From assembly GCA_019750135.1 (NCBI GenBank), contig JAIEOV010000089.1, forward strand, positions 1 through 64,000: 64,000 bases of DNA, in the 5' to 3' direction. A model generated the notes under the pieces. The model was not told the origin of the DNA. It saw nothing but the letters and a program-made list of their open reading frames with translations, and did not search any database. The position numbers were made by a program, and so were the translations under genes. This stretch comes from Reyranella sp. Its GTDB lineage: Bacteria; Pseudomonadota; Alphaproteobacteria; Reyranellales; Reyranellaceae. This document shows, one piece after another, positions 20,149 through 25,960 of this stretch; position 1 is the first letter of the stretch; the number at the start of each line of letters is the position of its first letter.

Positions 20149-23100
20149 ATGTTCGCCCGTAGAATGATTCTCATGCACATCGAACCTCGCCTCCTCGTCT
20201 TCACCAAAGGGGTGCGCTGGCGGATCGCTGGCGCCGTCGGCATCGGCCTTCTGGCCGTCGGCCTGGGCATCGCTCGCCTTGGCCTGCTGGGCTGGCTGAT
20301 CGGCCAGGTCTTCATCGGCCGGCCGATCGCGGAGCTGGTGCCCTCGGTTCTGCTGATCGCGCTGGTCATGGTCCTGCGCGGCCTCGCCGAGCACTGGCGC
20401 GCCGTGGTGGCGCACGGCACGGCGGCACGGGTGCAGAAGAAGCTGCGCCGCATCCTCTACGACCAGGTGGCATCGCTCGGACCGGGCACGGTCGGCCGCC
20501 AGCGCTCGGGCGGCCTCACTTTGTCGATGATCGACGGCGTCGAGCAGCTCGAGACCTACTTCGGCCAGTTCCTGCCGCAGTTCCTGATCGCGCTGTTGTC
20601 GCCCATCCTGATCTTCGCCGTCGTGGCCTTCGTCGACCTCCCGGTGGCGCTGGTCATGCTGGGCTTCGCGCTGGTGGCGCTGTGGGGGCCGGCGCTGTGG
20701 CACAAGTGGGACGTCAAGAACTCACGGCGCCGACAGGTGGCCTATGCCACGTTCGCCGCCGAGTTCCTCGATTCGATCCAGGGCCTGGCGACGCTGAAGG
20801 CGTTCGGCCAGGGCAAGACGCGCGCCGACAAGCTCGAGGTCGAGGCGCGCGATCTCTTCCGCCGCACCATGTGGGTGCTGGGCACCAACTCGCTGGCGCG
20901 CGGCATCACCGACACCGCGATCGCCGGCGGCGCGGCGACGGCGCTGATCTACGGCGCCTCGCGCGTGGAGTCCGGCGCGATGTCGCTGTCGGCGCTGCTG
21001 ATCATCCTGATGCTGGGCATCGAGATCTTCCGGCCGATGCGCGAGCTCCGCAGCGTGCTGCACCAGGGCATGGTCGGCCTCTCCGCCGCGCAGGGCATCT
21101 ACCGCATCCTCGACGACAAGCCCACCGTCGCCGACGCGCCGCCGGCGCGCCTCGACAAGGCTCTGGCGCCGACCATCGAGTTCGAGGACGTGCGCTTCGC
21201 CTATCCCGGCACGCGCCGCACCGTGCATGACAGCCTGTCGTTCCGCGCCGAGGCGGGCGAACGGCTGGGCCTGGTCGGTCCGTCGGGCGGCGGCAAGTCG
21301 TCGATCGTGCGCCTGCTGCTGCGCTTCTACGATCCCGACCGCGGCCGCATCCTTTTGGGCGGTCACGACCTGCGCACGCTGCCGTTCGCCGAGATCCGCT
21401 CGCTGATCTCGGTGGTGAACCAGGACACCTTCCTGTTCCACGGCACGGTCGAGGAGAACATCCGGCTGGGCCGCCCGCAGGCGACGCAGCAGGAACTCGA
21501 GGACGCCACGCGCGCCGCCAACATCCACGACTTCATCCTGAGCCTGCCGCAGGGTTATGCGACGGTCATCGGAGAAAAGGGCATCAAGCTCTCCGGCGGC
21601 CAGCGCCAGCGCGTCGCCATCGCCCGCGCGCTGCTGCGCGACACGCCGATCCTGATACTCGACGAGGCGCTCTCCGCCGTCGATGCCGAGAACGAGGCCG
21701 TCATCCAGGAAGCGCTCGATCGCCTGATGCAGGGCCGCACCACGCTGATCCTGGCCCATCGCCTGTCGAGCGTGATCGACTGCGACCGCATCCTCGTGCT
21801 GGATGGCGGCAAGGTCGCCGAGCAGGGTCGCCACACCGCGCTGATGGCCAAGGGTGGCGTCTATGCCGGCCTGATGGCCGAGCAGGCGCGCGAGCAGCAG
21901 GCGACGGATGTCGTCGACAGCATCGCGGCGCCTCAGAAGGTGGAGTCCGTCGCCGACACGCCAGGCGGTGCGCTCAAGGTCGTCACCGAAGGCATCATCA
22001 AGGCCGAAGGCCTCACCTGGTACCAGGTGGTCGTCGCCTTGATGAAAGTGATCATGCCGTGGAAGGGCAAGCTCACCGCCACCTTCACCTTGGGCGTGCT
22101 ACGCGTCATCGCCTTCATCGGCGTCGGCGTGCTGTCGGCGTTGATCGTGCTGGCGCTCAAGAACCATCAGCCCTACGCCGGCCTCGCCATCGCGCTCGCC
22201 ATCGTAGCGCCGCTGTCGGGCATCCTGCACTGGTTCGAATCCTGGCTGGCGCACGACATGGCCTTCCGCCTGCTGGCCGAGATGCGCATCGACGCCTTCC
22301 GCAAGCTCGATGCCCTGGCGCCGGCCTACCTGGTGCGCCGGCGCACCGGTGACTTGATGGCGCTCGCCACGCACGACATCGAGCTGGTCGAGTACTTCTT
22401 CGCCCACACCGTGGCGCCCGCCTTCGTCGCCATCCTGGTGCCGGCCGCCGTCGTCGCGGTGCTGGCCTGGGCCGACGGCTGGCTGGCGGCGGCGCTGCTG
22501 CCGTTCCTGCTCGCCGTCGGCTTGAGCCCCTTCCTGATGCGCAGGCGCGTCGATCGCCTGGGCAGCCAGGCGCGCGAGGCCGCGGGCGAGCTCGGCGCCT
22601 TCGCCGTCGACTCGGTGCAGGGCCTGGGCGAGATCGTCGCCTTTCAGCAGGAAGATGCGCGCGGCAACAAGCTCGACCAGCTTTCGCAGCGCCACATCTC
22701 GCTGCGCCTGCCGTTCTTCAGCGAGCTGACGATGCAGCACGCCATCCTGGAAGTGCTGACCGGATTGGGCGGCCTCGCCGTCGTCGTGGCCGGCGCCCTG
22801 CTGGCGCAGAAGGGCGCCATCGACGCGGGCCTGCTGCCGCTGCTCACCATCCTCGCCATGGCAGCCTTCCTGCCGGTGTCGGAGATCGCCCAGATCGGCC
22901 GGCAGCTGGCCGATACGCTGGGCGCCACGCGGCGCGTCTACGCGCTGGCCAACGAGCCGATCCCGGTGCGCGACGGCGCGGGGGTGCCGCCGCGTGCCGG
23001 CGCCGCCGCACTCGCCCTCGAGAAGGTGAACTTCACTTATCCCGGTCAGACGCGCCGCGCGCTGTCCGAGGTGAGCTTCGAGATCCCGGCGGGCAAGACA

Positions 23101-23754
23101 GTGGCGCTCGTCGGCACGTCGGGCGCCGGCAAGACCACGACGGCGCAGCTCCTGATGCGCTTCTGGGATCCCGACTCGGGCCGCATCACGCTGAACGGCG
23201 CCGACCTGCGCGACTACAAGCTCGACGAGCTTCGCCGGCTGGTCGCCCTGGTCGCCCAGGACACCTACCTGTTCAACGACAGCCTGCGCGCCAACATCCT
23301 GATCGCCCGGCCCGACGCCTCGGAGGCCGAGCTGCAGGCGGCGATTCGGCACGCCTCGCTGAGCGACCTCGTCGCTGCCCTGCCTGACGGCCTCGATTCG
23401 CCGGTCGGCGAGCGCGGCACGGCGCTGTCCGGCGGCCAGCGTCAGCGTGTCGCCATCGCCCGCGCCTTCCTGAAGGACGCGCCCATCCTGGTGCTCGACG
23501 AGGCGACCTCGCATCTCGACGCCGTCAACGAGCAGGCCGTGCGCCGCGCGCTCGACCTGTTGCAGTCGGACCGAACCACCATCGTCATCGCCCATCGCCT
23601 GTCGACGGTGCGCGATGCCGACCTGATCGTGGTGCTGGACGGCGGGCGCGTTGCGGAAAGCGGCACACACGCTTCACTGCTTGCGAAAAATGGACTGTAC
23701 GCGCGGCTGGTGTCGCGCCAGCTTGCCTCGGTGTACGCGCCTGCGGCATCCTGA
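20149..23754 (+). CDS. Double-length ABC exporter in one polypeptide (TMD-NBD-TMD-NBD, CydDC-like layout)
   Basis: Two Walker A (GPSGGGKSS, GTSGAGKTT), two LSGGQ, two Walker B (LILDEALSAVD, LVLDEATSHLD) in 1201 aa. Confidence 0.93.
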   Translation: MFARRMILMHIEPRLLVFTKGVRWRIAGAVGIGLLAVGLGIARLGLLGWLIGQVFIGRPIAELVPSVLLIALVMVLRGLAEHWRAVVAHGTAARVQKKLRRILYDQVASLGPGTVGRQRSGGLTLSMIDGVEQLETYFGQFLPQFLIALLSPILIFAVVAFVDLPVALVMLGFALVALWGPALWHKWDVKNSRRRQVAYATFAAEFLDSIQGLATLKAFGQGKTRADKLEVEARDLFRRTMWVLGTNSLARGITDTAIAGGAATALIYGASRVESGAMSLSALLIILMLGIEIFRPMRELRSVLHQGMVGLSAAQGIYRILDDKPTVADAPPARLDKALAPTIEFEDVRFAYPGTRRTVHDSLSFRAEAGERLGLVGPSGGGKSSIVRLLLRFYDPDRGRILLGGHDLRTLPFAEIRSLISVVNQDTFLFHGTVEENIRLGRPQATQQELEDATRAANIHDFILSLPQGYATVIGEKGIKLSGGQRQRVAIARALLRDTPILILDEALSAVDAENEAVIQEALDRLMQGRTTLILAHRLSSVIDCDRILVLDGGKVAEQGRHTALMAKGGVYAGLMAEQAREQQATDVVDSIAAPQKVESVADTPGGALKVVTEGIIKAEGLTWYQVVVALMKVIMPWKGKLTATFTLGVLRVIAFIGVGVLSALIVLALKNHQPYAGLAIALAIVAPLSGILHWFESWLAHDMAFRLLAEMRIDAFRKLDALAPAYLVRRRTGDLMALATHDIELVEYFFAHTVAPAFVAILVPAAVVAVLAWADGWLAAALLPFLLAVGLSPFLMRRRVDRLGSQAREAAGELGAFAVDSVQGLGEIVAFQQEDARGNKLDQLSQRHISLRLPFFSELTMQHAILEVLTGLGGLAVVVAGALLAQKGAIDAGLLPLLTILAMAAFLPVSEIAQIGRQLADTLGATRRVYALANEPIPVRDGAGVPPRAGAAALALEKVNFTYPGQTRRALSEVSFEIPAGKTVALVGTSGAGKTTTAQLLMRFWDPDSGRITLNGADLRDYKLDELRRLVALVAQDTYLFNDSLRANILIARPDASEAELQAAIRHASLSDLVAALPDGLDSPVGERGTALSGGQRQRVAIARAFLKDAPILVLDEATSHLDAVNEQAVRRALDLLQSDRTTIVIAHRLSTVRDADLIVVLDGGRVAESGTHASLLAKNGLYARLVSRQLASVYAPAAS

Positions 23755-25176: not shown

Positions 25177-25207
25177 CAACCTCGGGACGGGGCTATCGGA
25201 GTGGTGC

Positions 25208-25960
25208 ATGAGCGAACCATATAAGGTGTTCTGGCAGCCTGGTTGAACCAGCTGTCTGAGACTCAAAGAGTTTCTATCGGTCCGTGGGATCGACTTCGTA
25301 TCAGTCAATGTGCTCGAAGATCCGACCGGCATGGCGGAGCTGGAACGGCTCGGCGTGCGCTCGGTGCCGGTGCTGTCGCGTGGCGACAAGTACACGTTCG
25401 GGCAGAGCACCAAGCAGATCGTCGAGTTCCTCGGCCTCGGCGAGAAGTCCGGCCCCGAGCTCTCGACCGATGAGCTGGCGGCCCGCGTCACCAAGTTCAT
25501 GGATGCCGCCCTCCAGCTGATCCCGCTGATGCCGGCCGACCGGCTCGCCACGCACGTACCGGGCCGGCCGCGCAGCTACCGCACGCTCGCCTTCCATCTG
25601 TTCCGCGTCGTCGAGGCCTTCCTCGATGCCAACGAGAACGTCACGCTGGTCCAGGCCATGTTCCGCGAGGAGCCTGCCGCCGACGCCACGACCGAGGCCC
25701 TGGTCGCCTACGGCACGAACATCCGCGATCGCTTCCGCGCCTGGTGGCAGGCCGGCGACACGGCGCCGTCGAAGACGCTGCAGACCTATTACGGCCCGCA
25801 GAGCCTACATGAGCTGATGGAGCGGACGACCTGGCACTCGGGCCAGCATGTGCGTCAATACATGATGTTGTTGGAGAAGGAAGGGGTCACCCACCACCGG
25901 CCGCTGGTCGCCACCGACTTCGCCAAGCTGCCGATGCCCCAGAACGTGTGGGACGGTTGA
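25208..25960 (+). CDS. Glutaredoxin-DinB fusion with in-frame UGA at the first Cys of CxxC (candidate selenoprotein, UxxC)
   Basis: Reads MSEPYKVFWQPG(UGA)TSCLRLKEFLSVRGIDFVSVNVLEDPTGMAELERLGVRSVPVLSRGDKYTFG...DinB-like tail; UGA at 25244-25246; frame matches the 25310..25960 ORF; CGGAG RBS-like site upstream of ATG. Confidence 0.75.
25258..25274 (+). promoter_or_regulatory. Candidate bacterial SECIS-like hairpin GAGACUC-AAA-GAGUUUC
   Basis: 7-bp stem (one G-U wobble), 17 nt in total, starts after an 11-nt spacer from the UGA; surrounding codons (AGA, AAA, TTT, CTA) look unusual for this GC-rich window. Confidence 0.5.

Follow-up and report, generated by a model that had tools for sequence, protein, structure and literature searches.

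A glutaredoxin-DinB fusion gene of Reyranella very probably encodes a selenoprotein with selenocysteine at the glutaredoxin active site

Reyranella is a bacterium of soil and water, and selenocysteine (Sec) is a rare amino acid. The question raised by the locus described here is whether a UGA codon in a 64,000-nucleotide stretch of Reyranella sp. DNA (the window, contig JAIEOV010000089.1) truncates a gene or is instead read as Sec in the active site of a glutaredoxin (Grx) that is joined to a DinB-like domain. We propose, with high confidence from the comparisons presented below, that this Grx-DinB gene encodes a selenoprotein in which UGA 25244 specifies Sec.

By direct reading, the gene occupies positions 25208-25960 of the forward strand, from ATG 25208 to a terminal TGA stop at 25958-25960, with a single internal TGA at 25244-25246. 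With this codon translated as Sec or Cys the product is MSEPYKVFWQPG-U-TSCLRLKEFLS..., a protein of 250 aa in which Sec would be residue 13, the first redox residue of a UxxC motif. A Shine-Dalgarno-like GGAG (25198-25201, same strand) lies 6 nt 5′ of the ATG. The open reading frame (ORF) track places the start at GTG 25310-25312, which is not conserved as a start codon, as 10 of 38 relatives have GTG at this position and the rest have GTT, GTC, GTA, or ATT. The residues between the UGA and 25310 are among the best-conserved stretches of the whole protein, and on this comparison GTG 25310 is a valine codon within the protein (Val35) and no start.

The N-terminal part of the protein (residues 7-59; 25226-25384) is matched by the Pfam glutaredoxin family PF00462 at 5e-10 and 39.8 bits, compared with a cut-off of 22.9, and it contains the active site U13-T-S-C16 with P54 at the cis-Pro position. 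It is joined to a predicted four-helix domain of the DinB/S-transferase-like type (approximately residues 82-237; 25451-25918), in which His130, His210, and His214 are the predicted metal ligands. Pfam DinB_2 gives 0.0019 and 19.1 bits on the window protein against a gathering score of 24.8, while in close relatives it reaches E≤1 in 28 of 29, with a best value of 4e-6. In an AlphaFold2 model (mean pLDDT 87.9), residues 82-237 match structures of the DinB/YfiT type (Z as high as 14.7, for 6iz2) and residues 2-80 match glutaredoxin structures with Z of about 12. Across 76 distinct sequences of the Sec and Cys forms, six residues never vary, namely U/C13, C16, and P54, which make up the glutaredoxin active site, and H130, H210, and H214, the last two of which are spaced H-x3-H on the final long helix. 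The original prediction of a glutaredoxin N-terminus with a ribosome binding site-like sequence upstream of GTG 25310 is borne out by ATG 25208, the GGAG, and the PF00462 match, as is its placement of the in-frame UGA at the first catalytic Cys of the CxxC motif (position 1 of C-T-S-C). The second Cys is intact, as it had stated, given the invariance of C16, the frame downstream of the UGA is undamaged, with no frameshift or second stop seen in relatives, and the DinB-like nature of the fusion partner is upheld by the DinB_2 matches in relatives and by the DinB/YfiT structure matches.

A whole-genome search of 61 relatives, 37 of them Reyranella, recovered the gene in 34 of the 37 Reyranella genomes, each time with a TGA as its sole internal stop and at 71-100% identity to the protein of the window, and the TGA form was also present in one genome of another family. 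When read codon by codon, every fetched Reyranella locus that covers the site has TGA. Of the three Reyranella genomes in which the Grx-DinB gene was not recovered, two that are 98-99% complete (G008 and G025) keep selB and tRNA-Sec. In a class-wide sample, a homologue was present in 32 of 385 genomes, and among the loci that were read (37-79% identity) the aligned codon is TGA in the window and 18 distant loci, TGC or TGT in 11, and nothing else. The TGA thus persists among relatives and alternates with Cys in other homologues, which was one of the checks proposed at the outset. The TGA form extends to other alphaproteobacterial families at 41-50% identity, the aligned residue in non-Sec homologues is always Cys and never Trp, Gly, or Arg, and two plasmid homologues have Cys at the Sec position. 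Outside the genus, no additional matches emerged when 398 genomes of the phylum were searched. The Sec rows cluster in the tree, in which at least two changes of state are required, and a single origin of the Sec form could still be accommodated on it. Two genomes, G341 (L129 and L130) and G004 (L012 and L128), each have Grx-DinB in both forms, with one Sec copy and one Cys copy.

The RNA immediately downstream of the UGA appears to be under selection of its own. Across 38 ungapped relatives, and with the expectation derived from the gene's own codon usage, synonymous diversity in the 17 codons that follow the UGA (+1 to +17; 25247-25297) amounts to 0.21 of the expected value (p=3e-5 by permutation), compared with 0.78 in codons +18 to +40, and the constrained stretch includes frozen codons, AGA and CTA among them, that seem atypical of a GC-rich genome. 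Within it is an apical hairpin resembling a SECIS element (25277-25293, forward strand), with a stem of 25277-25282 paired to 25288-25293 and a CGUGG loop at 25283-25287, which spans 33-49 nt after the UGA and whose loop begins at 36 nt, close to the upper end that bSECISearch accepts. Across the TGA loci the hairpin has six core pairs and a CGUGN loop with G as its second base, and every TGA locus examined retains the core pairs (6.0 of 6), even where protein identity is 41-50%, versus a mean of 2.1 of 6 in Cys loci. Among 19 distinct sequences, three of seven pairs have changed on both sides in a compensatory manner, and the covariation score of 0.292 falls to 0.015-0.089 when the partner strand is slid, such that a slide of one base is sufficient to collapse the signal. 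No hairpin covariation was seen in the Cys set, and the hairpin is absent from the chromosomal Cys homologues. The folding energy of the 57-nt region is unexceptional (z −0.72), although that of the short hairpin alone stands out (z −2.09), and hence the case for an RNA element is built on conservation rather than on stability. A proximal hairpin, GAGACUC-AAA-GAGUUUC, was considered as part of the SECIS and rejected because distant TGA loci do not share it. The SECIS-like element that was to be sought 3′ of the UGA is represented by the apical hairpin, which is present, conserved, and located in a region with RNA-level constraint.

The window's own genome encodes the machinery needed to read such a signal, and the proposed check for selA, selB, selC, and selD was positive throughout. 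Contig 128 contains selA (C128:26883-28181, 564 bits), selB (C128:24300-26147, 456 bits), and tRNA-Sec (C128:24104-24195; Rfam 72.4 bits; assigned by ARAGORN as SeC with anticodon tca, UCA) in one operon, and selD (374 bits) is found apart from it on contig 135. A gene for the alpha subunit of formate dehydrogenase (FdhA) adjoins this operon (L126, G000:C128:23500-35500) and has an in-frame UGA at genome position 33501 on the minus strand, making it a second selenoprotein gene in the genome. Because the formate dehydrogenase beside the operon carries its own in-frame TGA, Sec decoding is very probably active in this organism. In the class sample, 18 of 19 genomes that have the TGA form encode SelB, versus 3 of 13 that have Cys only (Fisher p=4e-5), an association that is not significant when counted by taxonomic family (7 of 8 versus 3 of 8, p=0.12). 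SelB was not found in one genome with the TGA gene that is 77% complete (G048), and one Reyranella genome that is 89% complete (G019) lacks matches to both SelB and tRNA-Sec. As these two adjoin each other in relatives, one assembly gap would account for both losses in the latter.

These same data bear on other ways to interpret the UGA. It could be a nonsense mutation, leaving a dead N-terminal glutaredoxin and a truncated DinB protein made from an internal start such as the GTG 25310 offered by the ORF track. A pseudogene is difficult to reconcile with a TGA that is common to 34 of 37 congeners and to several families, at identities as low as 41%, in genes that contain no further stop, and a truncated protein is at odds with the highly conserved residues from the UGA to 25310 and with a GTG that only 10 of 38 relatives possess, so we give this interpretation virtually no chance of being correct. 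Leaky decoding of UGA does occur in bacteria, and the codon might be read by a near-cognate tRNA or be reassigned to another amino acid independently of SelB, but the aligned residue is always Cys, the Grx-DinB gene itself terminates with TGA, the Sec machinery of the genome is complete, and the hairpin is confined to TGA loci, all of which make SelB-independent reading extremely improbable. A conserved UGA with a hairpin is compatible with a codon that functions mainly as a selenium-dependent regulatory stop, controlling expression of the transcript such that the full-length enzyme needs enough selenium. That the Sec is exactly at the catalytic position and that the protein is conserved as an enzyme argue against regulation as its main role, which we regard as very unlikely, although regulation could operate on top of Sec insertion. 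The insertion of Sec at UGA 25244 is the reading that we adopt in what follows.

How, then, does this protein relate to known selenoproteins? The Sec-containing glutaredoxins of Geobacter, Alkaliphilus, and Moorella (PF00462) share with it the Grx fold and a Sec in place of the first Cys of CxxC, and cGrx1 (7c10) is the best match to the window's glutaredoxin among solved sequences. The known Sec-Grx proteins have been reported from anaerobes, with a description as small oxidoreductases (PMC1794560, PMC13188914), whereas the Grx of the window is joined to DinB and its host is a member of the Alphaproteobacteria. The UXX-star selenoproteins (NF041212, NF041211, NF047338) are also glutaredoxin-like and some contain Sec, but the window protein, with its U-T-S-C motif, scores only 15-33 bits with these models compared with curated cut-offs of 66 to 325, and it falls outside NF041212 at 32.5 bits versus 66. 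The DinB/S-transferase-like superfamily, including BstA-H, mycothiol S-transferase, and mycothiol-dependent maleylpyruvate isomerase, has the same four-helix fold and three-His site (PMC5815605), from which the window protein differs by its N-terminal Grx domain. Proteins with the same architecture and 40-42% identity occur in Roseomonas, Variovorax, and Caballeronia, where they are annotated as "DinB family protein" or "glutaredoxin domain-containing protein," and they have Cys instead of Sec in those that were read (Roseomonas and Variovorax).

No model of NCBIfam 20 (June 2026) reaches its cut-off on the window protein, and Grx-DinB is absent from a 119-family census of 2026 whose entries cover Grx, UXX-star, and further Grx-like families; the families of Haft and Tolstoy (2025) were compared as they are given in the table of a 2026 review. 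Our literature searches on glutaredoxin/DinB selenoproteins and on selenoproteins of Reyranella yielded nothing relevant. Sec in a glutaredoxin is already known, and Sec in the Grx-DinB architecture was not found in the literature and databases searched. The Grx and Grx-like families reported from the Sargasso Sea and GOS metagenomes (PMC1088965, PMC2398784) could contain fragments of Grx-DinB, and for this reason priority for the family is not certain.

The likely chemistry of the enzyme can be approached through its DinB domain. The DinB-type bacillithiol transferases share conserved H67, H160, and H164 residues and lose their thiol-transfer activity in the presence of EDTA, and in two-domain members the thiol is transferred by the DinB domain, with the co-substrate likely determined by the other domain (PMC5815605). 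The three-His match to these enzymes and their two-domain division of labor lead us to propose a metal-activated thiol reaction for Grx-DinB, and, judging from fold and residues, there is about an even chance that it is a metalloenzyme dependent on a low-molecular-weight thiol. That thiol is most likely glutathione rather than bacillithiol (BSH) or mycothiol (MSH). According to our proposal, SelB with Sec-tRNA-Sec would bind the hairpin 33-49 nt 3′ of the UGA and UGA 25244 would be decoded as Sec, so that a glutaredoxin domain, with U-T-S-C as its active site, would be followed by a metalloenzyme domain of the DinB type. The latter may coordinate a divalent metal via His130, His210, and His214 that would activate the thiol, probably glutathione, for a transfer, conjugation, or isomerization reaction, while the Sec-Grx domain might present or recycle the thiol, reducing mixed disulfides by way of a selenenyl-sulfide intermediate. 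Catabolic or detoxifying chemistry seems the likeliest role.

The gene neighborhood is less informative in this regard. In Reyranella the Grx-DinB gene is usually located downstream of a fused ABC exporter, a VOC protein, and a TctC-type binding protein, and the exporter is nearby in 33 of 43 Reyranella loci. The exporter in the window has two fused halves (1201 aa; 20149-23754) and scores above the cut-offs for the thiol exporter components CydD and CydC as well as for MsbA. In distant relatives the exporter, VOC, and TctC genes are not consistently shared and neighbors are not conserved beyond the genus, and the neighborhood was therefore dropped as a clue to the substrate. The distant relatives have different neighboring genes, several of them catabolic, and the neighbors suggest small-molecule metabolism. 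In two loci (L091 and L131) a DSBA-domain gene related to 2-hydroxychromene-2-carboxylate isomerase is just upstream of the Sec gene, and in L131 a chromate transporter is downstream.

Overall, we consider it more likely than not that Grx-DinB is a selenoprotein family of Alphaproteobacteria not catalogued before, one whose Sec-glutaredoxin forms part of a metal-dependent, thiol transferase-like enzyme. In 2006, FdhA was reported as the only selenoprotein of Sec-decoding Alphaproteobacteria (PMC1794560), in 2021 formate dehydrogenase was still regarded as the primary role of Sec in this class (PMC8124441), and a 2025 report already lists three known selenoprotein genes for one alphaproteobacterium (PMC12013277). 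Gene callers can overlook the active site of such proteins, as in this case where the ORF track begins the protein 3′ of the UGA, and relatives of Grx-DinB may stand in current annotation as truncated DinB proteins. There is now a DNA-level signature with which more of these genes can be found. The occurrence of Sec and Cys forms, at times in one genome, also provides a natural comparison of the benefit of Sec in a DinB-fold enzyme. If our proposal is correct, Grx-DinB would act as a glutathione transferase or isomerase that depends on selenium, and would add a selenoprotein besides formate dehydrogenase to a class whose use of Sec is ascribed mainly to that enzyme, such that Sec in Alphaproteobacteria would also serve glutaredoxin-type chemistry within a chimeric enzyme.
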